A DNA stretch of 20,264 bases, from the IMG/VR virus record IMGVR_UViG_3300024415_000064, positions 1-20,264 of that record; one strand, given 5' to 3'. Numbering within the stretch: the first letter of the stretch is position 1; every line of letters begins with the position of its first letter. Of the stretch, positions 1 through 12,215 are shown in pieces. Under the pieces are notes generated by a model. The model saw nothing but the letters and a program-made list of their open reading frames with translations, was not told where the DNA came from and ran no database searches. The DNA comes from a virus. The translations under genes and the position numbers were made by a program.

Positions 1-3000
1 ACGCTTTAGAAGATGGTACTTTGTTTGATGACATAGCGTTAAAAGTAGATGCAAATGCAGTTGCAAACTTAGCTGCAGGAGATCCTACTGTATACATAGA
101 CTTTAGTGGTAGGCTTATACCAAACCAGGATGCTGTTGTAAACATTACAAACGGTAGTAAAGATTTTGGTAAAGCGGTTATTGTTAGAAAGACTCCTATT
201 AACAACATTAATGATCTTACAGCTAAGAGTAAAGAACAACTAGCTAAAGAACTAGGCTATAACTCTTTTACTGACATGAAGAAACAAGCTAAAGGCAAGC
301 TTGCAGACTTTATATTTAAATCAGCACAGGCTACAATTGTTAGATTAGAACCGTTTGTTGCTAACAGCACAGAACAAATTGAGTCTATGAATACTGTAGA
401 CCCTTATAACAACTTGTTAAACAACGTTCTTATTCTTTTAGAGACACAGCTAGCTCAAACAAAACAAAATATTAAAAACACAACGTTTGTTAAAAACAGA
501 CAGGCGCGACTAGCAAAACAAATTGCTGATATTAAAGCAGCTAAAGATGTGTTTGTATCTGTAGACTCTTTTTATGAAGAAGTAAAAGAAGCTAATGACT
601 TGTTAGATCTATTTTTAGCAAATGATAAACGTGAGTTAAAAGAACGTATAGAAGGATTTAATAAATATAGAATCTTACTTAACAGCTTTACTTTCTTAGA
701 TGAGTTACCTGGAGCACTTATTAAACAAATAGAAGCAGGGGAGCTAAAAGACGATAAGGATAATAGAAGTAAGATTAGTAAACTTAATGACTCTGTTGCA
801 CTGCTAAACAAACTACGTAATAAACTACAGGACGAGTACATACCAGTACTTGCTGAAAAGTTATATCCATTTGTAGAAGCGTCTGGTCCGGCTACTAAAG
901 AGTATGTAGACATACAACTAGATCACTTAAATAAACAAAGAGAAAAAATCAAAGCTAGCTCTAAAACCCAAAAAGAGAAAGCTAAGATGCTAGGGGTATT
1001 AAATAATAGAGTAGAAAAATTAAAATTACTTGTAGGTCAGGCACCACAGTCTGAAGAAGCTTTTGCAAGAGCATTGCGTTATAGTTTACAAGATGACTCT
1101 TATTTCTTTTACTTACTTACATCACCATCTACTTCTTCTGATCCTACACTTGCGGGTCTAATAAACATGAACCACCAGTTAAATGATCAGCAGAGAATGA
1201 GAATGCTTGCTGTACACAACAGACTACAGGATGCATATGACACATTAATAGAGGGTAAGACTATAGGTAACGACGTAAGTAAAATTTACGAATCTATTAT
1301 TGAATTAAAAAACAATAGAACAACTGGTAATAAAGATGTGTGGACCCTTGTTACTAAATATGATGATACATCTTTTGACAAGGCACAAGAGAAAGCAGAG
1401 TCAGAGCTTAAAGCAAGCTTGTTAGACTTACGTATTGCATATCTAGAAAAGATAGAACAAGACATTACCAAAGTAGAAAACAAACTAGCGCAGTACGATC
1501 AGTTAGAGAATAAAGAAGCAGTGTCTTTTGTTATAAACAGTTTAGAAAACAATCTAAAAAGACTGCAGACTATAAAAGTTAACGGTCCTACAGAAAAAGA
1601 ACTTGTAAGATTTGGTCTTAGAAGATCTGGATGGTTTAAAAATAACACTGTTGCAAAAAGCAGGGAAGAAATACAAGATGCTGCACGTAAAGCTGGAGGA
1701 GATGTTAAATCCTGGGCTCTTACACAAATGAATGCACAAGCAGCGTTAGAAAATGGCTTTATAAACCAAGAAGAGTTTGACGCTATTAATGCTGTAGAAA
1801 AAGCTAACAGTAAGTTCAAAGGTAAATCATCTGCATCTTACTTTGGGTATATGGTAACTAGACCTAACGAGTCTTACATAAATAAAAAATGGAATTCGTT
1901 ATATGATTCTAAAGATCAACCTAAAAACCAAGAAGGAGAAGCTCACCAAAAGTTTACTGAGATTTACAATGAGTCTTTAGCACTGGTATATAAAAAACAA
2001 AGTGTAAACATGGCATTGCCTTCTATACGTAAAGGAACATTAGATAGAGTTATTGAAAATGGAACATTAAGTGAAATTAAAGAAGCATACTCTAGACTGT
2101 TTACTGTAGATCAGGATGACTCAATTGCATATGGTATAGCAGCATTAGATAAACAATCAGAGCAGTATGCTCCTGTAATGTTTATGGAAGATATAAACTC
2201 TAATGATGTTTCTTTAGATGTAATGACATCTCTTAGTATGTTTGCTAACGGCGCTCTTACTTCTGAGAAAAACAACGAGCTTTTACAAATTGCATATTTA
2301 TTAAAAGACACATTTGCAAATAGACAAGTACAGGATCCAAAAAAATTAAACAAAACAGCGTTAGCTAAGTTTGGTAAAAAAGTATCTGACATACAAGAAG
2401 GAGAAAGCATTATAGAAAAAAGATTAGAAAAGTACATTGAAATGGTACTTTTAGGTAAGACTAAAAAAGTAGAAAAAGTAACTGTTGGTACTAAAGAAAT
2501 ACAAATAGACAAGATAGTTGATACATTACTAGGCTATACAGCTGTAACAACATTAGGTTTAGATTTCTTAAAAGGTACACGTAACTATTTGACTGCGTCT
2601 TTCCAACAACTTATTGAATCTGGGTCAAGTAGAGCTAACCCTACACTTATAAATGCATCACAGTTTGCAGACGGTCATAAAGAAATGATGACTCGTATAA
2701 AGGATTTGTATGATGACAAGTATAATAAACTAGGTAACAGATCTTTTATAGGACAGATGTTAATTAAGTTTGATGGCATACAAGGTAACTTTGAAGATCT
2801 AGTAGGTAAGCAGGTATCTGGTAGAACTGCTATGAGACAGTTTTTAAGTAGTGATACGTTATTAATTAACTATCATATTGGTGAGGTAGCTGCACAAGGA
2901 GGTGCTATGATTGCACATCTTAAAAATAAAGAAGTAACTCTAGACGGTAAAAAATACAACTTGTATAATGCTTTTTATGTAAACCCTAATACCGGATTAC

Positions 3001-3788
3001 TGGAACTAGTAGGAGGTACAGAAGCTGAGCAAGCAGAAGCACAAAAGCTTGTAACTAAAACAATAGCAGAGATAAGAGAAATGAATAGAAGACTGAATGG
3101 TAACTACAGACGTATGGATAAGACAGTGTTGTCTCAGACTACAGGAGGTAGAATGCTTGAGCTCTTTAGAAAATTCCTTGTACCTACATTGTTAAACAGA
3201 TATAGAACCCAGTTTGTTAATCACGAGACTAATCAAGTAGATGGTGGATTCCATAGATGGTTTATCAGTAATATGATGGACACATGGAGAACTAGTACAG
3301 AATCAAAAATTTTAGACAGACTAAAAGATGCGTATAAAAGATCTACTGTAACAGCTCAAGATAAAGAAAAAGCGTTTAGAGCTTTGTATGAAATGGGAAC
3401 ATTGGTAATTCTTTCTACTTTAGTAGGTATCTTATCCCAAATGGTAGAGGACGATGATGATGAAATACCAACAAGTGCTTATTATTTATTATATCTAATG
3501 ACTACGTTAAAAGGAGAGATTAATGCATTTGCACCTACACCTGGAGCAGTGTCTGATTTACTTAGAATATTAAGATCTCCTACAGCAATGACGAACTCTA
3601 TACTGCGTGTTGAAAAACTTCTTGCACAGTTAACAGATCCGTTTGCTGAGTATAAAAGAGACAGTGGTGTATGGAAAAAAGGAGAGAGTAAACTTAAAGT
3701 AAGAGTATTACAAACTTTAGGTTATAGTGGAGGAGTACAATTTGATCCTGAAACTGCTTGGAGAAACTTTACTAAGTTGACTAACTAA
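1..3788 (+). CDS. C-terminal part of a giant phage protein, probably virion/cargo (5' end outside window)
   Basis: The frame is open from the first complete codon at nt 3, with no stop before TAA at 3786-3788, so the gene starts upstream of the window and about 1,260 codons are visible. I see no enzyme motif. The middle (roughly nt 1390-1570) is rich in Leu/Glu/Lys heptads and likely forms coiled coil. Near the C-terminus (about nt 3391-3441) lies a single hydrophobic stretch, immediately followed by a run of acidic residues (EDDDDE) and then further hydrophobic helices. Giant proteins on the strand opposite the replication genes are typical of crAss-like and N4-like podoviruses, where they are packaged in the virion and injected with the DNA; that role is inferred from size and position. 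It could also be another structural or transcription-related polyprotein. It converges with the minus-strand operon and shares a bidirectional terminator with it. Confidence 0.85.
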   Translation, partial: ALEDGTLFDDIALKVDANAVANLAAGDPTVYIDFSGRLIPNQDAVVNITNGSKDFGKAVIVRKTPINNINDLTAKSKEQLAKELGYNSFTDMKKQAKGKLADFIFKSAQATIVRLEPFVANSTEQIESMNTVDPYNNLLNNVLILLETQLAQTKQNIKNTTFVKNRQARLAKQIADIKAAKDVFVSVDSFYEEVKEANDLLDLFLANDKRELKERIEGFNKYRILLNSFTFLDELPGALIKQIEAGELKDDKDNRSKISKLNDSVALLNKLRNKLQDEYIPVLAEKLYPFVEASGPATKEYVDIQLDHLNKQREKIKASSKTQKEKAKMLGVLNNRVEKLKLLVGQAPQSEEAFARALRYSLQDDSYFFYLLTSPSTSSDPTLAGLINMNHQLNDQQRMRMLAVHNRLQDAYDTLIEGKTIGNDVSKIYESIIELKNNRTTGNKDVWTLVTKYDDTSFDKAQEKAESELKASLLDLRIAYLEKIEQDITKVENKLAQYDQLENKEAVSFVINSLENNLKRLQTIKVNGPTEKELVRFGLRRSGWFKNNTVAKSREEIQDAARKAGGDVKSWALTQMNAQAALENGFINQEEFDAINAVEKANSKFKGKSSASYFGYMVTRPNESYINKKWNSLYDSKDQPKNQEGEAHQKFTEIYNESLALVYKKQSVNMALPSIRKGTLDRVIENGTLSEIKEAYSRLFTVDQDDSIAYGIAALDKQSEQYAPVMFMEDINSNDVSLDVMTSLSMFANGALTSEKNNELLQIAYLLKDTFANRQVQDPKKLNKTALAKFGKKVSDIQEGESIIEKRLEKYIEMVLLGKTKKVEKVTVGTKEIQIDKIVDTLLGYTAVTTLGLDFLKGTRNYLTASFQQLIESGSSRANPTLINASQFADGHKEMMTRIKDLYDDKYNKLGNRSFIGQMLIKFDGIQGNFEDLVGKQVSGRTAMRQFLSSDTLLINYHIGEVAAQGGAMIAHLKNKEVTLDGKKYNLYNAFYVNPNTGLLELVGGTEAEQAEAQKLVTKTIAEIREMNRRLNGNYRRMDKTVLSQTTGGRMLELFRKFLVPTLLNRYRTQFVNHETNQVDGGFHRWFISNMMDTWRTSTESKILDRLKDAYKRSTVTAQDKEKAFRALYEMGTLVILSTLVGILSQMVEDDDDEIPTSAYYLLYLMTTLKGEINAFAPTPGAVSDLLRILRSPTAMTNSILRVEKLLAQLTDPFAEYKRDSGVWKKGESKLKVRVLQTLGYSGGVQFDPETAWRNFTKLTN

Positions 3789-3824: not shown

Positions 3825-4331
3825 TTATAAGGAAACTTTTATTCTACGTGCTGTAAAATGTTCTTTCCTCGGTATTACAGTTTGGGCGTTGAAGCCATGT
3901 GCAATATATTTAGAAGTCAGTTTACTCATATAAGTAGTATAACTTTCTTCGTTTTTAAAATTGAGAGTTGCTAAGACAGTTGTATGATTAGGAACTGTTG
4001 CTAGAAGACCAAAGGCATTCTGTTGTGTGTCAGCTTCTACTAAATTAGTACATCTGTCCTCTTCCGTTAGTTCTTTTATAAGATCCTCTAGCTTATCATC
4101 TTTGATTAAGATTATAGCATAGAAGGAGTATAAAATTCCCCATTTCTTGAAAGAAGGCATATTGTTATCTTTAATATATCCTTCCTTTCTCAGCTTTCGC
4201 ACTCTCATAAGAGTAGGACCTTCACTAAGACCCACTTCTTTTGATATTGCTGCATTAGTAATACTTGCATTTTTTGAGATGAGATTTACAATCTTTGCAT
4301 CGATCTCATCTACTCTAGTTTTAATTGGCAT
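3825..4331 (-). CDS. Lrp/AsnC-family transcriptional regulator
   Basis: A 168-aa protein of typical Lrp/AsnC length and layout. Residues about 8-52 form the N-terminal winged helix-turn-helix, with the characteristic DEIDAKIVNLISKNA start and an HTH around residues 25-47 (NAAISKEVGLSEGPTLMRVR). The remainder, from about residue 65, has the alternating beta/alpha pattern of the RAM ligand-binding and oligomerisation domain. Family members bind DNA as dimers up to octamers and often sense amino acids. It is the promoter-distal gene of the minus-strand block, 25 nt after the UDG fusion stop and directly before the convergent terminator. Such regulators are unusual phage cargo; it might control phage late genes or the host's amino-acid regulons, but nothing in the sequence decides which. 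No Shine-Dalgarno; the leader is A/T-rich. Confidence 0.85.
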   Translation of the reverse strand: MPIKTRVDEIDAKIVNLISKNASITNAAISKEVGLSEGPTLMRVRKLRKEGYIKDNNMPSFKKWGILYSFYAIILIKDDKLEDLIKELTEEDRCTNLVEADTQQNAFGLLATVPNHTTVLATLNFKNEESYTTYMSKLTSKYIAHGFNAQTVIPRKEHFTARRIKVSL

Positions 4332-4356: not shown

Positions 4357-5460
4357 CTACCATACTATTTCCTGAGTACTAAATTTTTCTAGAAACTCGT
4401 TACATTGGGTAAAAGGCTTAGATCCAAAAAATCCTGCCTTGCCTCCTGCGTACACTTCTGCTGCAGGATGTGGGGCTTTTATAACCTTAATGTAGTCACT
4501 TTCCTGCGTAGGCGCAAGTTTTTGTGACTCTTTACCCCATAGTATAAATACAATAGGTTTCTTTGATGCTATTTTAGAAACTATTAGTTTGTTTATAACA
4601 TCAAGAGTAAACTTTCCCCATCCTAAATTAGAATGTGAGTTAGCTTGCCCTTTATTAACTGTTAAAGTTTTGTTTAACAGCAGTACTCCTTGCTCAGACC
4701 ACCTAGTCAGTGTTGGACTATGAGCGCTCTTAAAAGCAAAGTTACCGGAGTAATAATCATCTTGGACTTCTTTTAATATGTTCCGTAGGCTAGGAGGTAC
4801 CTTAGTCTGACCTTCTCGTATAGAGAAAGCCAAACCGTGAGCACTTCCATCATGGTACGGATCTTGTCCTATTATTACAACATTTGTATCCAGAAAGCTG
4901 CAGTGTCTAAACGCATTAAACACCTCTTCTTTAACTGGAAAAACACAATTTTTTGATCTTAAAGCTGTTACAGATTGACCTATACTTTTCATATAGTCTT
5001 TATCAAATAGATCTCTAATTTCGCTATACCATTCGTACCCTAAGTATTCATATAACTTCTGGTTAGAAGGGTTTTTGTATTCTACTTTCCAATATTTAAT
5101 TGGTATGTAAACCTTAGAGGTATAGCTGGCATTTTTATATACCATTCTACCTGATCTTATTTTAGCTTCTTGGGTCGTAATGCGGTATATTGCATTACTA
5201 GTTTCGTATTCTATTTCGTTTGCAAAATCTAATATTCTTGCGTGTACACTCCAGGCTTTAGTTTTTCTATAAATATCAGATTCTTTTTCGTGCTTTTTGT
5301 ACACAACTGTTTCAGGAGTGGCTTGTACTAAAAATCCTAAATCTCTTATTCTATTCTCATTGCCTTGGTGTAGTTTTATACTGTAAGGACTTGTCTTATT
5401 TATAAGGAGTTTGTTATTATAATTGTCTACTATTTCTAGTACGTCAGATTGCTGTATCAT
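4357..5460 (-). CDS. ung: Uracil-DNA glycosylase with an extra N-terminal domain
   Basis: Residues about 140-365 match family 1 uracil-DNA glycosylase, which removes uracil from DNA to start base excision repair. The water-activating loop GQDPYH is at 198-203 (catalytic Asp200), PPSL at 222-225, the uracil-contacting Asn in LLLNKTLT near 263, SHSNLGW at 275-281, and the His loop is APHPAAEV with His331. The usual HPSP is here HPAA, and the DNA-intercalating loop before GFFG is longer than in E. coli Ung. Residues 1-135 are additional: a basic, Tyr/Lys-rich, beta-strand-like region I do not recognise. E. coli Ung is about 229 aa, so the extra domain accounts for the 367-aa length. The gene overlaps the upstream DnaA-domain gene by 17 nt and ends in TAG. 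UDGs are known in crAss-like phages. The catalytic residues look intact, so activity is likely. Confidence 0.92.
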   Translation of the reverse strand: MIQQSDVLEIVDNYNNKLLINKTSPYSIKLHQGNENRIRDLGFLVQATPETVVYKKHEKESDIYRKTKAWSVHARILDFANEIEYETSNAIYRITTQEAKIRSGRMVYKNASYTSKVYIPIKYWKVEYKNPSNQKLYEYLGYEWYSEIRDLFDKDYMKSIGQSVTALRSKNCVFPVKEEVFNAFRHCSFLDTNVVIIGQDPYHDGSAHGLAFSIREGQTKVPPSLRNILKEVQDDYYSGNFAFKSAHSPTLTRWSEQGVLLLNKTLTVNKGQANSHSNLGWGKFTLDVINKLIVSKIASKKPIVFILWGKESQKLAPTQESDYIKVIKAPHPAAEVYAGGKAGFFGSKPFTQCNEFLEKFSTQEIVW

Positions 5461-5929
5461 ATTCTACTGTTTTATCTTTTGCTAATTCTGTTCTTAATTC
5501 TTGTATTTCTATCATAAGAAGATCAACACGGTCATATACATTTTTATAATCAGTTGGATCAAATAACCGATTCTTTTCTAAATGTAATTTATCATCTAAA
5601 ATTTTGTCTATTATTGTTCTTACACGAGAATGCATTCTATCGAATAATAGTCTTGCTTCTTCAAACTGAGCTAAAGTCCAAGGTACTGTTTTATTTGCGT
5701 GTATGACTGTGGCGTGATCTTTACTTAGGTATGCTCCTATGGATGCTAAACTTTGGTTTGTATATGCTACTGCTAACATAAAAAAGATGCCTCTGTGTAG
5801 TACGTATTCTCTTTTTCTAGATACGACACGTATGTCTAATCTACCTGTTTCTACTACTATCTGTTCTATTGCATCTAAACTTATTAAACCTCGTTCTGCT
5901 CTAAGTGGTCTTATCTTTACTTCTTCCAT
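5444..5929 (-). CDS. Stand-alone DnaA domain IV-like DNA-binding protein
   Basis: A 161-aa protein whose residues about 18-85 match the C-terminal DNA-binding domain (domain IV) of the replication initiator DnaA: an initial helix (LDAIEQIVVETGR), a basic SRKREYVLHR segment, a long helix, and the signature DHATVIHA at 71-78, which equals the DnaA D-H/R-T-T-V-L-H-A box-recognition motif. The AAA+ ATPase domain III and the DnaB-loading domains I/II are absent. Residues 86-161 are helical and charged, with a likely coiled coil near 130-152, so it may dimerise. Binding DnaA-box-like DNA is expected from the family. Whether it acts in phage origin recognition, competes with host DnaA, or acts as a regulator is inference. 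It overlaps the UDG gene downstream (17 nt) and a 49-aa ORF upstream (29 nt). Confidence 0.82.
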   Translation of the reverse strand: MEEVKIRPLRAERGLISLDAIEQIVVETGRLDIRVVSRKREYVLHRGIFFMLAVAYTNQSLASIGAYLSKDHATVIHANKTVPWTLAQFEEARLLFDRMHSRVRTIIDKILDDKLHLEKNRLFDPTDYKNVYDRVDLLMIEIQELRTELAKDKTVEYDTAI

Positions 5930-6050
5930 TACTGTTTTTTATTAGTGCGTCTAATTTTTGCTGTAATTTTTGAATTTTGTGCTTAGTGTCAAAATTTTTC
6001 ACTTGTTTCAAAAAAGCAATTTGTTTCATTACTGTTTTAATCTTTTCCAT
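5901..6050 (-). CDS. Small basic hypothetical protein (49 aa)
   Basis: A short Lys-rich ORF beginning at ATG 6050 (MEKIKTVMKQ...). A start further upstream at 6089 is possible but would overlap the preceding gene by 53 nt rather than 14. The protein is predicted helical with regularly spaced hydrophobic residues (IAFLKQVKNF, IQKLQQKLDALI), compatible with a short coiled coil. It overlaps the genes on both sides and stops with TAG. Nothing identifies a function. Its only support is continuity of the tightly packed gene chain and the lack of another gene in the 5930-6036 interval. Confidence 0.5.
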   Translation of the reverse strand: MEKIKTVMKQIAFLKQVKNFDTKHKIQKLQQKLDALIKNSNGRSKDKTT

Positions 6051-6399
6051 GGTGGTTTTCAGGCTTACGATTTCTATTATACTGCTCAATATACCATTGC
6101 TGGTCTGTTACATCTTGTTCTAACTCACGCTGTAAGTTAGCAAGTGCTCTCCAGGCAACTTTTGCTGAGTGTCTAATACCATCGTCATCTATTGTGCCTG
6201 CATCTATAAGATGTCTAGCTAATGCATCAAGATCATCTGCAGACTTAGATTTGTCCCAATGTAAAGGTTTGTCTGGATGATGTTGTAAGTTTCCTTGTAA
6301 CGAAACTTTTGATATACATTTAATAGCATCAGGAAAGTATTTTAACACACCTGTAAATACTGGAGTTTCTTTTCTGTCTTCTGCTTTACTTTTTGTCAT
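6037..6399 (-). CDS. dATP/dGTP diphosphohydrolase N-terminal-like protein (DUF5664 type)
   Basis: With the start at ATG 6399 the protein is 120 aa. That start is preferred over 6450 because it reduces the overlap with the upstream gene from 65 to 14 nt and keeps the conserved part. Residues about 15-95 resemble the phage DUF5664 / dATP-dGTP diphosphohydrolase N-terminal family: an opening Gly-x-Leu-Lys-Tyr-x-Pro segment, then HWDKSKSADDLDALARHLID, an acidic GTIDDDGIRHSAKVAWRALA and a closing helix. Family members, including MazZ of phages with 2-aminoadenine DNA, are all-alpha NTP pyrophosphohydrolases that clean or reshape the purine dNTP pool; the conserved acidic and His residues presumably bind metal. 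The family is also common in phages with normal DNA. No PurZ or DatZ gene is seen here, so base modification cannot be claimed. Confidence 0.62.
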   Translation of the reverse strand: MTKSKAEDRKETPVFTGVLKYFPDAIKCISKVSLQGNLQHHPDKPLHWDKSKSADDLDALARHLIDAGTIDDDGIRHSAKVAWRALANLQRELEQDVTDQQWYIEQYNRNRKPENHHGKD

Positions 6400-6637
6400 G
6401 TGTTTTTTTCTTTTTTTCAAATGGGTTATACCGTTTAATAGGTTCTTCATTGCCTATGTTAAACTTTTCTAACACTTCTTCTTCACGACCTTTGCTACAA
6501 TAAATAATACAGCCGTCCTTATAAAAAGGACCAACTGTATCTTTATTTTTACGTCTTTGAGCTTCTAGCGCTTTTGCTTTAGCTAATGCGTCGTGTGCTT
6601 CTTTTTTACCTTTGAGTTTTTCTGTTCTTTTAATCAT
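6386..6637 (-). CDS. Small lysine-rich hypothetical protein (83 aa)
   Basis: A very basic 83-aa protein. Residues 1-35 are a Lys/Ala/Arg helix (EAHDALAKAKALEAQRRKNK), followed by a small beta-like core (GPFYKDGCIIYCSKGREEEV) with two cysteines, and a poly-lysine C-terminal tail. The charge suggests nucleic-acid binding, but no family is recognised. Its start overlaps the last 8 nt of the upstream nuclease gene and its end overlaps the next gene by 14 nt, so it is probably translationally coupled to both. The continuous overlap chain is the main reason for calling it real. Confidence 0.68.
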   Translation of the reverse strand: MIKRTEKLKGKKEAHDALAKAKALEAQRRKNKDTVGPFYKDGCIIYCSKGREEEVLEKFNIGNEEPIKRYNPFEKKKKTHDKK

Positions 6638-7547
6638 TGATTGAATTGAATATAGTTACACCTTTGTTTTCGTAGACCTCACGTGGTTCTATCCACTGTT
6701 GAGTATCTTGGTGATACTTTATTCTATTCAGAAGAGCTTGGTATTTTTGCCTGCCTTCATCAATTAATTTCTCACCGATTTCGAAGACGCGTACTTGATT
6801 ATAACCGGTTGTCTCTATAGCTATAATAAAACACTTCTGCACAGGCTTTCCTATCCACTCTAAGGCATCTTTATAAAACGCCAGCTGTCTATCATAATGA
6901 TAGTAGTCAAACGAGTCTCTAAAGAAAGAAAGTGCTTTTGATGTTGTTTTTAAATCTATAAGAGCATTGGAAGTGTATCTATCTATTTTAGATTTATACG
7001 CTTCATCTGGTCCCCAATATACATCCTCTTCGTTAACGCCGGGTGTTTCAAACAACAGCTCTTTAACTAACGCATGATTGTTTACAGACTCTTTTATGTT
7101 AGATAGCATTCCTGCCATCTTTTGGTCTATACAAATCTTGCCGTCCGCTCTATGTAAGAAGTCATAATAGTCCTTACCTTGATCGATGATTTTTTTGATT
7201 AATGTTTCTGGTTTCCAGGATTGTCCATACCCAAACTCTTTAGCAGAACCAAATATAAATTCATGGTGTGAGTTTATGTCCGTATCTAGTTCTCCTCTTG
7301 TAATTTGATATACTTTATCAATGATTCTTACAATAGTATCACTAGGTCTGTCAACATCTGAGACCATAAAAGTTTCAGGCTCTAAAAAATATTGGTGTAT
7401 AGTTGTGCCCGCATATAAAGAAGGTGTGCTATCTTGCTTAAGATTTCCGTCAATGTAGTCTTTAAACTTTCTTGGCGATCCTCCCTGTATCGGGTTTATG
7501 TAACTCAGAGACGAGTTACTAATTTTGTTACTTTGATAATAATCCAT
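6630..7547 (-). CDS. PD-(D/E)XK nuclease, RecE/exonuclease VIII-like
   Basis: A 305-aa protein with the motif order of the phage PDDEXK_12 / RecE-like exonuclease family. The opening SNSSLSYI segment precedes a Gly-x-x-x-His motif at G47-H51. The catalytic strand pair SKIDRY (Asp189) and LIDLKT (Asp198-x-Lys200) gives the D...DxK core, and YDRQLAFY at 218-225 supplies the conserved Gln221 helix. Such enzymes resect double-stranded ends to give single strands for annealing or recombination. Together with the Sak4-like ATPase elsewhere in this operon it could form a two-component recombination system; that pairing is inference. It is preceded by a 66-nt leader carrying regularly spaced ACAG repeats, and overlaps the next gene by 8 nt. 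Confidence 0.8.
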   Translation of the reverse strand: MDYYQSNKISNSSLSYINPIQGGSPRKFKDYIDGNLKQDSTPSLYAGTTIHQYFLEPETFMVSDVDRPSDTIVRIIDKVYQITRGELDTDINSHHEFIFGSAKEFGYGQSWKPETLIKKIIDQGKDYYDFLHRADGKICIDQKMAGMLSNIKESVNNHALVKELLFETPGVNEEDVYWGPDEAYKSKIDRYTSNALIDLKTTSKALSFFRDSFDYYHYDRQLAFYKDALEWIGKPVQKCFIIAIETTGYNQVRVFEIGEKLIDEGRQKYQALLNRIKYHQDTQQWIEPREVYENKGVTIFNSIND

Positions 7548-7597: not shown

Positions 7598-7615
7598 AAG
7601 ATTCTTCTGAATCTT
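7598..7615 (-). terminator. Small hairpin, possible weak terminator after the 41-aa gene
   Basis: A perfect 7-bp stem (AAGATTC/GAATCTT) closes a 4-nt loop. On the minus strand it is followed by TTATATT, a short U-rich tail. The stop codon of the 41-aa Cys4 gene (7614-7616) lies partly in the stem. It is AT-rich and weaker than the other terminators in the window, so partial termination or 3'-end protection is possible. Confidence 0.5.
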
Positions 7616-7739
7616 ACAACATATCCGCTTCAAAACAACTGTTACTGCAATAACCAGGTTTACTCATTGGTTTCTCACAGTGCATACATGTGTGTTCGTC
7701 GTCATCATAAGCGGGGTTTCCGTAATCTACTGGGTCCAT
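7614..7739 (-). CDS. 41-aa Cys4 zinc-finger-like microprotein
   Basis: Translating ATG 7739 to TAA 7614-7616 gives a 41-aa peptide starting MDPVDYGNPAYDDDEHTC. It carries Cys18-x2-Cys21 (CMHC) and Cys31-x3-Cys35 (CSNSC), spaced as expected for a small treble-clef or zinc-ribbon knuckle. The acidic N-terminus is followed by a short basic linker between the cysteine pairs. The gene fits exactly between the SPL-like gene (stop at 7741, 1 nt gap) and the hairpin at 7598-7615, so it closes that small cluster. The Cys spacing and fit make chance unlikely despite the short length. Function unknown; zinc binding is inferred from the cysteines. Confidence 0.7.
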   Translation of the reverse strand: MDPVDYGNPAYDDDEHTCMHCEKPMSKPGYCSNSCFEADML

Positions 7740-7740
7740 A

Positions 7741-8574
7741 TTAAAATATATATCTAATTGTTTCTATAGGAAAGTACTTGCTGTATAGTTCTTTCCATTC
7801 ATTTAATAGTCTGCCTTTATGTTTTAATGGGTAACGCATTACACCGCTTTTGTTTTTTACCTCATTGCTGTATTGCATTAGGTGTCTTGCTTCCGGTGAT
7901 GCTTTAGCCATTTGATTTACATGGTTAGTTAAAACTATTACTTCGCATTTGTTAACACCAGCCACTGCAGATACTTCTTGAAACAACTCTTCATAAAGCT
8001 CATCCCAGTGATGATGAAATATAAGAGGGGAGTAGTTTATATGTACTTCCCATCCTAAGTCTTTTAATCTATTAATATCCTCAATACGAGAATAAATATC
8101 CTGCATTTTAGGCTCTACAACGGTAGAATATACCTGTGGCATAAGAGAAACACGTATACGAGGGCGTTTTTTGAAAGAATTTACGTCTGTTGTTAGTAGT
8201 TTTGGATACTTAGTAGCCATAGTACTATTCAATTGTGGGTGATCATCATAACGCTTAAGATAATCTATAAGCGGCTCAGGCATATGCTTTTGCATAAGCA
8301 CTAAATCTGTATTACATGCAATGTCTACCATTGTGTATACAGGGTCTTGTTGATCAGGTACTTTGTCGTAGGTCTTTTCCCACTCTACTACAGAATTAAA
8401 TATTTCATCAACATTCTCATTGACGTATACTCTAGTTCCATTATATCTAGACATATAACAGTATGTGTTTACACAACCACCAAAACATCCGTAGATAAGA
8501 TTTGGTGCAATGCAATTAGCACTGTTATTGTTTGGTTTTGTTACCAGGGTTTTTGTTTTCTGTGTTTTTATCAT
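7741..8574 (-). CDS. Spore photoproduct lyase-like radical SAM protein
   Basis: A 277-aa protein resembling spore photoproduct lyase (SPL), the radical SAM enzyme that reverses the UV photoproduct of thymines. The cluster region is GCFGGCVNTYCYMSRY, with Cys30, Cys34 and Cys39 and the YCY tyrosines Tyr38/Tyr40 typical of SPL. ACNTDLV contains Cys87, which aligns with the SPL hydrogen-donor cysteine (Cys141 of the Bacillus enzyme, from memory). The downstream HINYSPLIFHHHWDELYEELF matches the SPL His/Tyr-rich strand-helix. The cluster spacing is CX3CX4C instead of CX3CX2C, so cofactor binding may differ. The protein is shorter than Bacillus SPL (about 340 aa), mainly at the N-terminus. Family membership is well supported; photoproduct repair activity is inference, and another radical reaction on DNA or a nucleotide is possible. 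Its start lies inside the upstream HTH gene (50-nt overlap). Confidence 0.75.
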   Translation of the reverse strand: MIKTQKTKTLVTKPNNNSANCIAPNLIYGCFGGCVNTYCYMSRYNGTRVYVNENVDEIFNSVVEWEKTYDKVPDQQDPVYTMVDIACNTDLVLMQKHMPEPLIDYLKRYDDHPQLNSTMATKYPKLLTTDVNSFKKRPRIRVSLMPQVYSTVVEPKMQDIYSRIEDINRLKDLGWEVHINYSPLIFHHHWDELYEELFQEVSAVAGVNKCEVIVLTNHVNQMAKASPEARHLMQYSNEVKNKSGVMRYPLKHKGRLLNEWKELYSKYFPIETIRYIF

Positions 8575-8737
8575 TTCTATAATATTTACCTTTAGTTACT
8601 CCTATCGGATATTCTTTTAAATATCTGTATAAAGTTCTGTCTGTTATTCCTAATAGTTTTGAAGCCTCTTGTCTGTGTCCTGCGCACCTGTTTAACGCTT
8701 TACATATAAGTCTAATGTGCTCGTCTTTTATCGTCAT
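8525..8737 (-). CDS. Fis-type helix-turn-helix protein (70 aa)
   Basis: The start is placed at ATG 8737 because an ATG further upstream (8785) lies inside the terminator structure. The 70-aa product has a Fis/NtrC-type HTH (HTH_8): a first helix HIRLICKALNRCAGHRQEAS and a recognition helix LLGITDRTLYRYLKEY. Those two segments follow the family pattern A-L-x3-x-G-x-R-x-x-A-x-x-L-G-I-x-x-R-T-L-Y-R-x-L-K. The C-terminal 25 residues are Lys/Asn-rich and likely disordered. It has no ATPase or sensor domain, so it is a plain DNA-binding protein. It is the first gene after the branched terminator and overlaps the SPL-like gene by 50 nt, so it may regulate that cluster. Confidence 0.75.
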   Translation of the reverse strand: MTIKDEHIRLICKALNRCAGHRQEASKLLGITDRTLYRYLKEYPIGVTKGKYYRNDKNTENKNPGNKTKQ

Positions 8738-8754
8738 ATAATTTAGATTTATAA

Positions 8755-8810
8755 AAAGAGGGGTTGGGACTCGGTAACCCTGCACGTATTACTACGCTTG
8801 ACCCCTCTTT
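8755..8810 (-). terminator. Branched, structured terminator / possible small RNA after rIIB
   Basis: A perfect 10-bp stem (8801-8810 with 8755-8764, AAAGAGGGGT/ACCCCTCTTT) encloses 36 nt. On the minus strand the interior forms a 5-bp hairpin with a GUAA (GNRA) tetraloop (8784-8797) and a small GGG/CCC hairpin (8766-8780), giving a three-way-junction shape. The stem is followed by TTTTT, so it works as an intrinsic terminator 5 nt after the rIIB stop. The segment GGGTT at 8776-8780 can also pair with AACCC at 8761-8765, which would break the outer stem: a potential alternative fold. Confidence 0.75.
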
Positions 8811-8815
8811 CTAAA

Positions 8816-9952
8816 TTATGCTACCATTACAAGTCTCTCTTGTACGATATTTGCTTTTTCTGCTAACTGTGCAGAACTACTGTACTGTCCTATTTCTGCT
8901 AGTTGTTCTTCTAGCGACTCAGTCTCCCAAGTTTTATAATCATGCTCGAAATAAGGAGTTGTAATTGTTACATCATTAGTTAAATCTACAATACCATATG
9001 CATAGTACTCGCAGCATCTCATCTTCATGTAAGAATAATCTGATGGTACAGCTACAACATTCATAGGATTAACTAGTGTTGCTAAGAAGACAGTGTCTCC
9101 GCCTCCACCACCAAATCCTTTTACATATCCAGGAGCACCTACGTGCAAACCACTAGAACATGTATTGTTAGGATTGCTGTCACAAGAACTTCTAGGCATA
9201 GATACAGGAGAACCCAAACGAATTTGTGTACTACCACCATGCCAGTCAGTAAACTCTGGTGCATCTACATCACCTCCTAGATCGTTCATGCTATTAAACA
9301 TTTCATCTAGGTTACCAGCAACGTGCTGAGGTGCAATAAAATTACCTTTGCTGTCTGCTACAACTTCTGTTTTCACAATAGAAAACTTACCGTCAATATC
9401 CATAACTGTGTAATCTTTAGGATCCTCACCAGAAGCTTTAATTTGTATGTACTCTTTAGGTACCCACATATTTACAGCTTTATACGTCTTATCAGTTTTC
9501 TTAACAGACTTATAGGCAATAAAATAACCTGAGTCTGTAATTGGAAACTCATACTGGTCCATAAAAGAATACAAATCACGTTTAACGTGCTCTGCAGGAT
9601 TTAACATCAACAGCTTCCAGAAATTTACTAACGGAGTTATTGGATGTCCCTGATCTAAGAATTGTTTCATCTTAGTTAATAACTTGGTAGGTAGGGGCTC
9701 ACTGAACCCCTTTAAATACCAATTACCAAGACTGTCTCTAACAAGATCCTGACTGTTATAGACTCTAGATACAGGATCAAACTTCTCAATTAACTCTTTG
9801 ACTAAATTGTCTTTAGGGTTAAGTGCTACTGTTTTTACCTGCTCGTATAAAGTCTGTGCTTCATCTTTTGTAGCTTCTGTTTTGTAAAAACTGCTACCGT
9901 TTATTAGTGCAGTAACATCCTTGTTACTTCTAATTGCAAATACTTGATTCAT
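8816..9952 (-). CDS. rIIB: rIIB-like protein
   Basis: The start is set at ATG 9952 (MNQVFAIRSN); a longer frame to 10033 would mostly run inside rIIA. The 378-aa product resembles T4 rIIB. The central region has the DQGHPITPLVNFWKLLMLNP helix and DSGYFIAYKSVKK, and the diagnostic CSSGLHVGAPGYV precedes a glycine-rich GFGGGGGD and the VNPMNVVAVPSD strand. In T4, rIIA and rIIB are membrane-associated proteins needed to exclude or resist host defences such as RexAB, and they affect lysis timing; the molecular role is still unclear. The gene overlaps rIIA by 23 nt, in the same order as in T4, and ends at the branched terminator. The C-terminal 50 residues are variable. Pairing with rIIA makes the assignment firm. 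Confidence 0.85.
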   Translation of the reverse strand: MNQVFAIRSNKDVTALINGSSFYKTEATKDEAQTLYEQVKTVALNPKDNLVKELIEKFDPVSRVYNSQDLVRDSLGNWYLKGFSEPLPTKLLTKMKQFLDQGHPITPLVNFWKLLMLNPAEHVKRDLYSFMDQYEFPITDSGYFIAYKSVKKTDKTYKAVNMWVPKEYIQIKASGEDPKDYTVMDIDGKFSIVKTEVVADSKGNFIAPQHVAGNLDEMFNSMNDLGGDVDAPEFTDWHGGSTQIRLGSPVSMPRSSCDSNPNNTCSSGLHVGAPGYVKGFGGGGGDTVFLATLVNPMNVVAVPSDYSYMKMRCCEYYAYGIVDLTNDVTITTPYFEHDYKTWETESLEEQLAEIGQYSSSAQLAEKANIVQERLVMVA

Positions 9953-12215
9953 TGAAATAATTTTTAATTTTAAAATTGGTTTTTGAATAAAATTGAGGAA
10001 TAATATTTTTGATAATATCTTCCGCTTTGTCATCTCTAGTTGTATTCTTAGTTAAGAAATATCTCTCCAAGAATACTAACTTGTCTGCTTGCTTCTTAAG
10101 AAACTCTACCATGCCTTCCATATAGTAACCGCCTTGCTTACCATAAGCAGTAGCATTAGCATCACTCATAACTATATTGTAATGATTAAACAATCTTGTT
10201 ATGTTTTCTACACGTTGATCCGCTCTGTTCTGAGTACTTACATCCGTAATAATGGTTGCAAAATCAGTACGATACTTTCTAGGAATAGGAGATACATTAG
10301 AAGCCTCCCCTAATAGAACAGGATGTGTTTTTACAAGACCATCTAAATATTCTATGGACTTAGTGCACATAAAATAGTTATAGTTTTTTACTAAGAATTC
10401 TTTAATAGTAAGAGCACCTATCTGCTTGTACCACTTTAAGTGAGACTTAGCAATTTTATGCACTTGTATTCTAGAAGCATTGTAAAGAGGTCCGTAAGTA
10501 TCTCTACCTAATCTGTTCTTGCCTGTGTTAAACTTACTGTTATACAAAACAAGACCTAATCGTTTGAGCTCTTCCTCTTCTTCTGACGATGCATAGACAA
10601 TACTAACACCTTGGTTAACTAGTTTAGTTAGATCTTTGTAATACGCTTCTGTTTTATAAAATAGAACGTACTCTAGCTTCCTGTCATAGTCGTTGTACCA
10701 TCGCAGCTGTCTAGCACATACCAAATCTCTAGGAGGTTTAGCTTTAGCTACAGCTTTAACAGATGGTTTAAACGTATCAGGAACTACAAGATCATCATAG
10801 CTCTGTGTATTGTCTATAATATAGCGTAATAACAAAGGCTTTAGCTTTTCTAGCATTGCTACCTTACTTTGCTGCAAAGTATTTTTCCATGTATCATCAT
10901 CGGATAGTTCTAAACAAACAAAACTGTTAGTTCCAACAAGAGCCTGTTCTATGTACTCGTTCTTAATGCTACTTAACTTACCTCTCTTTCTAAAGAAAGC
11001 TGTGATAGGTCTTCTAGCAAAGTGATGAGAAGCGCTATTACTATATTTCTTAGTATTACGTTTACCATCAACAACAGAATAGCCTTTAAATATAAAATCA
11101 ATGTCAGAAGGTGTAACAGACATGCCCCACGGAGCAAACTCTGGTCTATCTGATCCGGGTATACAAAAGTCAATGCTAATGCTTTCTTCTTTTGTAACCG
11201 GTATAGTAGGAGTTCCTCTGTTTTCTTCACATAGATCTATGTAACGTTTAAAGTCTGTTTCTTCTTTCCACGATTTATAATATAGCTCTCTTAGCTCTTC
11301 TCTAGCATCTCTGTACTTTTGTTTAATAGCAGCTACAGTTCTATCGTTGTATTCTATAGATTCTCTAGACATAGTGACGTCTATATCACCAACATCAAAC
11401 TTAAGAGCTACCGTAGTCTGTGAGTACGTGTCTAGATAATCAATATCTTCTCCGTATCTACCAAGACCTACTTGATCTGCATTTAACGGGTAGCTTACAC
11501 CACCTAAACAAATAGAAAGCTTGAAGTCTGTATAACCAGTACTACCAGTTGCTATCCAGCTGTTACCAGACATAACTTTGTAGTTATTGTTTATACCCAT
11601 GCCTCTGTAAGAGATATTATCAAAGAAACGTAGCTGTCTTTTACACTCTGTAATAAACTTATCTTCGTCTCCTGATCTAACAGGCAATATAACTTCTGTA
11701 CCATTTCTAGTGTCTGTTGTGTTACTAGTCAACAGCTCAATTCTAGGGACTTGCTCACCTCTATGTACTATATAGTGGTATTCAATCCCATCGTGTATAG
11801 TTTTAACCTCAAAAGCGTCTGTATAAGCTAAAGGACTCTTTGCGCCTATACCAAAACCACCTATCTCGTTGTTAGTACCTCTCTTCGTAGAAGAAAAGTA
11901 TTTAGAATAAATGTTCTTGATTCTATCTGGACTTAGACCTACACCTACATCTTTAAAACAGATTTTACCTGATTTACCTGTAAGTGGGTCCGCTTTTGAT
12001 AATAGTATAACTACATCGTCTTTAATTCCTGCTTCTCTGTGTGAGTCGAAACAGTTTGAGGTCACCTCTCTTACGATTGACCCTATCTTATTAGAATATA
12101 AAGTATCAGAGAAACCCCTGAATAGTATTCCAATATTACTACTGTCTATACCAAAGTCTATAGACTCGGATATAGTACCTACATGCTGAATGTCAGCGTT
12201 ACTTACTAATTTCAT
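9930..12215 (-). CDS. rIIA: rIIA-like GHKL ATPase
   Basis: A 761-aa protein whose N-terminal ~200 residues form a Bergerat (GHKL: gyrase, Hsp90, histidine kinase, MutL) ATP-binding fold. The N-box is EVTSNCFDSH at 50-59 (Glu50, Asn54, Asp57), the G1 box is DVGVGLS at 89-95, and the G2 lid is GGFGIGAKSPL at 119-129. This layout, the ~725-aa size of T4 rIIA and the adjacent rIIB identify it as rIIA-like. In T4 it acts with rIIB at the membrane or nucleoid and counters host abortive infection. The C-terminal 500 residues match no domain I recognise. It starts 11 nt after the zinc-ribbon gene stop with an A-rich leader, and its last codons overlap rIIB. Confidence 0.86.
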   Translation of the reverse strand: MKLVSNADIQHVGTISESIDFGIDSSNIGILFRGFSDTLYSNKIGSIVREVTSNCFDSHREAGIKDDVVILLSKADPLTGKSGKICFKDVGVGLSPDRIKNIYSKYFSSTKRGTNNEIGGFGIGAKSPLAYTDAFEVKTIHDGIEYHYIVHRGEQVPRIELLTSNTTDTRNGTEVILPVRSGDEDKFITECKRQLRFFDNISYRGMGINNNYKVMSGNSWIATGSTGYTDFKLSICLGGVSYPLNADQVGLGRYGEDIDYLDTYSQTTVALKFDVGDIDVTMSRESIEYNDRTVAAIKQKYRDAREELRELYYKSWKEETDFKRYIDLCEENRGTPTIPVTKEESISIDFCIPGSDRPEFAPWGMSVTPSDIDFIFKGYSVVDGKRNTKKYSNSASHHFARRPITAFFRKRGKLSSIKNEYIEQALVGTNSFVCLELSDDDTWKNTLQQSKVAMLEKLKPLLLRYIIDNTQSYDDLVVPDTFKPSVKAVAKAKPPRDLVCARQLRWYNDYDRKLEYVLFYKTEAYYKDLTKLVNQGVSIVYASSEEEEELKRLGLVLYNSKFNTGKNRLGRDTYGPLYNASRIQVHKIAKSHLKWYKQIGALTIKEFLVKNYNYFMCTKSIEYLDGLVKTHPVLLGEASNVSPIPRKYRTDFATIITDVSTQNRADQRVENITRLFNHYNIVMSDANATAYGKQGGYYMEGMVEFLKKQADKLVFLERYFLTKNTTRDDKAEDIIKNIIPQFYSKTNFKIKNYFNESSICN

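Follow-up and report, generated by a model that had tools for sequence, protein, structure and literature searches.

A spore photoproduct lyase-like protein of a crAss-like phage with a lengthened CX3CX4C cluster loop: a candidate enzyme for the reversal of DNA photoproducts

Introduction

The motif CX3CX2C is the usual mark by which radical SAM enzymes are recognised. Spore photoproduct lyase (SPL, SplB) is a spore enzyme that repairs ultraviolet-damaged DNA independently of light. In its reaction, the 5'-deoxyadenosyl radical abstracts the H6proR atom from the spore photoproduct and the lesion fragments; Cys141 then donates a hydrogen atom, and the radical is passed back via Tyr99 so that SAM is regenerated (PMC3742179). 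SPL-family genes in bacteria that form no spores are already documented, with SOS control of splB inferred for some of them (PMC3323433, PMC3765255), and an SOS-regulated role in UV repair was proposed for the splB homologues of alpha- and betaproteobacteria (PMC3323433). Several radical SAM enzymes function with non-canonical spacings, namely ThiC (CX2CX4C), HmdB (CX5CX2C) and QueE (CX14CX2C) (PMC4389238).

Here we describe a gene in a 20,264-nucleotide stretch of viral DNA (the window), whose product combines the catalytic residues of SPL with the spacing CX3CX4C. In the literature searched, which covered few subscription papers, no report was found of a CX3CX4C radical SAM enzyme or of an SPL in phages.

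The gene, its neighbourhood and its virus

The gene (Table 1) is an ORF on the minus strand that starts with ATG and contains no internal stop codons. A first-pass annotation, which gave no strand, had described it as an SPL-like radical SAM enzyme; Cys30, Cys34, Cys39, Tyr38, Tyr40 and Cys87 (within IACNTDLV) were all found where it had placed them. Compared with the nearest distinct relative, dN is 0.056 and dS is 0.53 (dN/dS of about 0.1), and the gene is under purifying selection.

Table 1 Features of the SPL-like gene and its immediate neighbours in the window
Feature	Position	Strand	Basis
SPL-family radical SAM enzyme, 277 aa	7741..8574	-	ORF, profiles, AlphaFold model
Cluster loop C30-x3-C34-x4-C39 (residues 30-39, CFGGCVNTYC), followed by Tyr40	8458..8487	-	
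Cys87 codon; aligns to the SPL hydrogen-donor Cys140(Gt)/Cys141(Bs)	8314..8316	-	
Equivalent of the SPL lesion-recognition hairpin, shortened: residues 236-250, SNEVKNKSGVMRYPL; Lys-Asn for SPL Arg-Tyr	7825..7869	-	
Fis-like helix-turn-helix ORF; the SPL-like gene overlaps it with its 5' end	8525..8785	-	
41-aa cysteine-rich (zinc-ribbon-like) ORF, starting one base past the stop codon of the SPL-like gene	7614..7739	-	
Exonuclease VIII-like PD-(D/E)XK protein (DUF3799), neighbour	6630..7547	-	

The SPL-like gene is flanked by replication and recombination genes of the same strand (exonuclease, UDG, primase, DnaB and helicase), while the Fis-like ORF is close to it in some relatives only. Other minus-strand genes of the window include one for an AsnC-type HTH protein (3825-4331), the UDG gene, whose product is extended at the N-terminus by a long stretch that matches nothing in Pfam (4357-5460), a gene for a phage protein bearing a DnaA C-terminal DNA-binding domain (5444-5929), and one for a small protein (6037-6450) with a match to PF18909, the dATP/dGTP diphosphohydrolase N-terminal domain, which is found downstream in 46 loci of the window's own clade (clade 1, see below). 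Upstream, at 8816-12215, rIIB-like and rIIA-like ORFs overlap by about 100 bases if the earliest possible start codon of each is used.

At the edge of the window, which truncates it, a plus-strand ORF of 1261 aa (3-3788) resembles a putative RNA polymerase subunit of the crAss001 group, and the closest relatives of the DnaB and the helicase are from crAss-like, Cellulophaga and Flavobacterium phages. Judged by its sequence, the window comes from a crAss-like phage, the host of which, going by the phage group, is probably a member of Bacteroidota that forms no spores; this agrees with the phage origin and the non-sporulating host that had been proposed earlier. Among 20 long relatives, the records of which may be incomplete, UDG is encoded by 14 and thymidylate synthase by one, and neither a light-driven photolyase nor a T4-type pyrimidine-dimer glycosylase was found in any. 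With gene names assigned by eye, a (d)NMP-kinase-like gene lies directly upstream of the SPL-like gene in 13 of 28 loci of a second clade (clade 2), and in 32 of 124 clade-1 loci it is immediately followed by a MazG-like gene.

Family assignment and predicted fold

The protein matches the Pfam SPL family PF20903 with 55.5 bits (E 5.5e-15), above the gathering score of 27. Against the NCBIfam models it obtains 137.9 bits for TIGR03886 (4.5e-40) and 47.7 bits for TIGR04070, the true SPL (9.8e-13), far under the respective equivalog cut-offs of 437.55 and 400; by score it belongs to neither equivalog family. When PDB sequences were searched with phmmer, SPL alone was significant, the best match being the Geobacillus enzyme 4fhc (2.8e-8). 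This alignment pairs Cys87 with the hydrogen donor Cys140, Tyr38 with Tyr96 and Tyr40 with Tyr98, and leaves a gap of two residues between the second and third cluster cysteines. The PHROGs collection contained no significant family for the protein. Neither a tblastn search of 50,697 catalogued phage records with a clade-1, a clade-2 and a partial clade-3 protein nor a search with the window DNA gave a match.

The AlphaFold2 model, based on 65 aligned viral sequences, is of high confidence (pLDDT 93.4, pTM 0.91). SPL structures were the best matches both in Foldseek (about 1e-13) and in VIA-align, where SPL reached Z 25.9 over 264 residues with an rmsd of 2.4 and the next family 13.9. Residues 1-277 align structurally to SPL residues 62-341, and thus the N-terminal part of SPL, about 60 residues, is absent. 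The protein belongs to the SPL superfamily, with a shorter N-terminus, and the assignment proposed from the sequence is borne out by the profiles and by the comparison with the SPL crystal structure. The least confident part of the model is the cluster loop (pLDDT of about 72 for residues 31-50); in a canonical viral relative with the x2 spacing, the same region has a pLDDT of about 90, and the match to SPL reaches Z 30.5. The three invariant cysteines of the window protein stand at the radical SAM cluster positions with the x3/x4 spacing, in a model that was built without cofactors and is neutral as to cluster binding by the longer loop.

Spacing of the cluster cysteines among relatives

Homologues were collected from IMG/VR, and the spacing was tallied with an HMM on the best ORF of each locus. 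Several of the scans were baited with the motif itself, and the counts therefore describe presence and constancy within the matches listed, not frequencies; since separate scans can return the same contig, distinct sequences were counted as well. The spacing CX3CX4C was found at no fewer than 252 loci (at least 165 distinct sequences), which establishes that the unusual motif is conserved in homologues. Viral members with CX3CX2C occupy at least 107 loci (at least 97 distinct sequences) and those with CX3CX3C at least five (at least three distinct: L403/L447, L421/L441 and L413). A pattern scan for CX3CX5C found no family member. The fairest tests of the spacing are a clade-2 scan without cluster-motif patterns, which returned 51 relatives, all the motif-bearing ones being x4, and a clade-1 scan in which five of the six patterns lay outside the motif. 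Among the matches listed in the first scan, all 80 relatives had the x4 spacing.

The viral relatives fall into three clades. Members of clade 1, which are window-like, are about 69-93% identical in the cases compared and carry CX3CX4C, as does clade 2 (e.g. L179), about 40% identical to the window protein; clade 3 (c3; e.g. L278 and L308), about 29-35% identical, has the canonical CX3CX2C. One member of the window's own clade, otherwise constantly x4, is x3 (L413). The loop length thus varies from two through three to four residues within one viral family and the donor cysteine is almost always kept: among the matches listed, it is present in 249 of 249 readable x4 loci, 5 of 5 x3 loci and 104 of 106 x2 loci. 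The two x2 exceptions, L250 and L402, are one sequence from one viral contig, a CX3CX2C member with Glu instead of the donor Cys (GESSD) that groups, on a long branch, with bacterial TIGR03886 proteins.

A sequencing or frameshift error, which the first-pass annotation had raised, is excluded as the origin of the x4 spacing: the low dN/dS indicates selection on the protein, and the same spacing recurs in many samples and in two clades about 40% identical to each other. Nor is the spacing by itself a sign of a different reaction, as had also been suggested, since x2 or x3 occurs in viral relatives whose catalytic residues are the same.

Among 349 Pseudomonadota genomes that have TIGR03886, a search for a cellular CX3CX4C member yielded a single case, a phage-like contig in a MAG, which was the contig on which the scan was centred. 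A scan of the genome collection with clade-1 patterns only returned just three MAG contigs, with proteins 73-77% identical to that of the window. These clade-1 genes, in bins of Pseudomonadales, Sphingomonadaceae and Campylobacteraceae (L082, L083 and L084), are probably on phage contigs inside bacterial bins.

In a tree computed without the loop columns, clades 1 and 2, joined by L413 and L421, make up a single group (100/100), followed outwards by the x3 member L403 (96/82), clade 3 (85/77) and finally bacterial TIGR03886 with L250. The placement of L421 and L250 is unsure, as both are long branches. The tree requires four changes of spacing and one of the donor; such counts alone give no direction, and the most economical reading is a lengthening from 2 to 3 to 4 with a reversion of L413 to 3.

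Active-site residues and hairpin

Within the viral family, four cysteines alone are (nearly) invariant, C30, C34, C39 and C87, and they match the four that are conserved in B. subtilis SPL (PMC3742179). Tyr97 and Tyr99 of that enzyme correspond to Y38 and Y40, and the conservation of the donor cysteine and of both tyrosines, claimed at the outset, is evident from the alignment with SPL. Besides the cluster cysteines and the two tyrosines, S18, D90, K122, R139, R141, S143, E211 and Y275 are common to SPL, the bacterial groups and the viral clades, and the window protein further shares E154, P183 and Y248 with SPL. We also considered C21 as an extra cluster ligand and rejected it: all aligned relatives of the first scan have it, but clade 2 and some members of clade 1 have Ala at this position.

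A further departure of the window clade from SPL concerns the hairpin, the residues R304 and Y305 (Gt) of which we take to be substrate contacts in lesion recognition. This pair reads Lys-Asn in the window clade, where the hairpin is shorter; most members of clades 2 and 3 keep the hairpin Tyr, and clade 3 retains the longer hairpin.

Proposed mechanism and alternatives

From these results, we infer cluster binding, radical chemistry, a DNA substrate and the nature of the lesion, and the following mechanism may be proposed. Cys30, Cys34 and Cys39 would hold one [4Fe-4S] cluster in a loop two residues over the usual length, and the cluster would split SAM to give the 5'-deoxyadenosyl radical. 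The radical would then take a hydrogen from a thymine photoproduct, the spore photoproduct or a close relative of it, in viral DNA during infection; Cys87 would give a hydrogen atom to the opened lesion, and the thiyl radical would be relayed back through Tyr40 with regeneration of SAM, as in SPL. All residues of the SPL radical relay are retained in the viral protein. That the protein is a radical SAM enzyme appears highly probable. We consider the reversal of a thymine photoproduct in DNA, with the longer cluster loop tolerated, to be the most likely function (probability of roughly 0.58), because the relay residues are kept and non-canonical spacings work in other enzymes. The family and fold matches, the low dN/dS, the location among replication and repair genes, and the occurrence of UDG without a light-driven photolyase or T4-type glycosylase in most of the long relatives also speak for it. 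Against it stand the profile scores far under the equivalog cut-offs, the absent N-terminal region, the replacement of the Arg-Tyr pair, the low confidence of the model in the cluster loop, and the small share that the spore photoproduct has among lesions unless the DNA is dry or in the A form. Since the lesion-recognition hairpin is shortened in the window clade, the exact lesion may differ.

If the protein does not reverse a photoproduct, it most probably acts on a different nucleic-acid substrate, because the hairpin is altered and some relatives have nucleotide-metabolism neighbours. A working radical SAM enzyme of the SPL fold might carry out phage base or nucleotide modification, or act on a different lesion, with a protective or anti-defence role. 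Such a function is possible though rather unlikely: the changed and shortened hairpin, the (d)NMP-kinase-like and MazG-like genes adjoining relatives, and H178 and N180, which are common to TIGR03886 and not to SPL, speak for it, but the lyase-specific set of Cys87, Tyr38 and Tyr40 is retained, 19 of the 20 long relatives have no thymidylate-synthase-type enzyme, and a non-systematic look near the gene recognised no hypermodification gene set. Action on RNA or protein, as in tRNA modification or peptide maturation, with the SPL fold kept by chance, is improbable. Although other radical SAM enzymes occur in phages and RlmN, MiaB and viperin structures appear low in the fold list, SPL stands alone at its Z score, and neither a peptide substrate gene nor an extra SPASM- or TRAM-like domain was seen.

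The low confidence of the model in the cluster loop would also suit a degenerate or structural remnant, whose x4 loop would have lost its ability to hold a cluster, and TIGR03886 offers a precedent for the loss of the donor residue in the superfamily. However, loss of function would free the cysteines, whereas the three cluster cysteines and the donor are invariant in the x4 sequences and dN/dS is low, so that a remnant is very unlikely; a sequencing or frame error has practically no probability left, given the recurrence of x4 in two divergent clades.

More tentatively, reversal of photoproducts would mean that a large family of crAss-like phages has its own light-independent enzyme for this purpose in spore-free hosts, and that in one lineage the motif was stretched stepwise from CX3CX2C through CX3CX3C to CX3CX4C while the catalytic chain of hydrogen transfer stayed intact; the length of the motif would then not be a fixed requirement of the chemistry. 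The x2, x3 and x4 loops around one otherwise conserved active site constitute a natural experiment on the rigidity of the motif. The family extends SPL-type proteins to a largely uncultured phage group in which no light-driven photolyase was found among the long relatives, and would permit asking if phage DNA, while packaged or replicating, acquires the spore photoproduct or lesions resembling it.

Comparison with known systems

The enzymes with functional non-canonical spacings, ThiC, HmdB and QueE, have functions unrelated to that proposed here, and none of them has CX3CX4C. SPL itself (TIGR04070; Geobacillus structures 4FHC and 4FHD) shares with the window protein the fold, the cluster cysteines, the tyrosine pair, the donor cysteine and many core residues, at about 20% identity over the structural alignment; it differs in having CX3CX2C, the first 60 or so residues and the R304-Y305 hairpin pair. 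The splB group of non-spore-formers (L100-L102 and L226) has the donor cysteine, as does the window protein, but carries CX3CX2C and is nearer to SPL than to the viral family.

Among cellular proteins, the nearest relatives found, in the profile searches as in the tree, are the TIGR03886 proteins of Deinococcus, Methylobacterium, Streptomyces and others. They have HxNxSP and a C-terminal RY[AI]F in common with the window protein, the H178 and N180 of which are G and I in SPL, but they possess the canonical CX3CX2C and the N-terminal region, and in 10 of the 10 members read the donor Cys is replaced by Glu. The ten proteins L091-L095, L223-L225, L228 and L229, which read GENGD or GENSD at this site, are annotated as 'spore photoproduct lyase family protein'; with Glu at the position of the hydrogen-donor cysteine, the annotation of the bacterial TIGR03886 proteins as lyases seems doubtful. 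On a Streptomyces plasmid (L225, 1096-3852), a cryptochrome/photolyase gene immediately precedes the TIGR03886 gene, suggesting a role of TIGR03886 in UV repair. The contrast between these proteins, with a normal motif and Glu for the donor, and the viral ones makes the role of the cysteine testable across the family. Finally, within the same viral family and with the same donor cysteine, clade 3 (L278, L308) has a two-residue loop, and L403, L413 and L421 a three-residue one.
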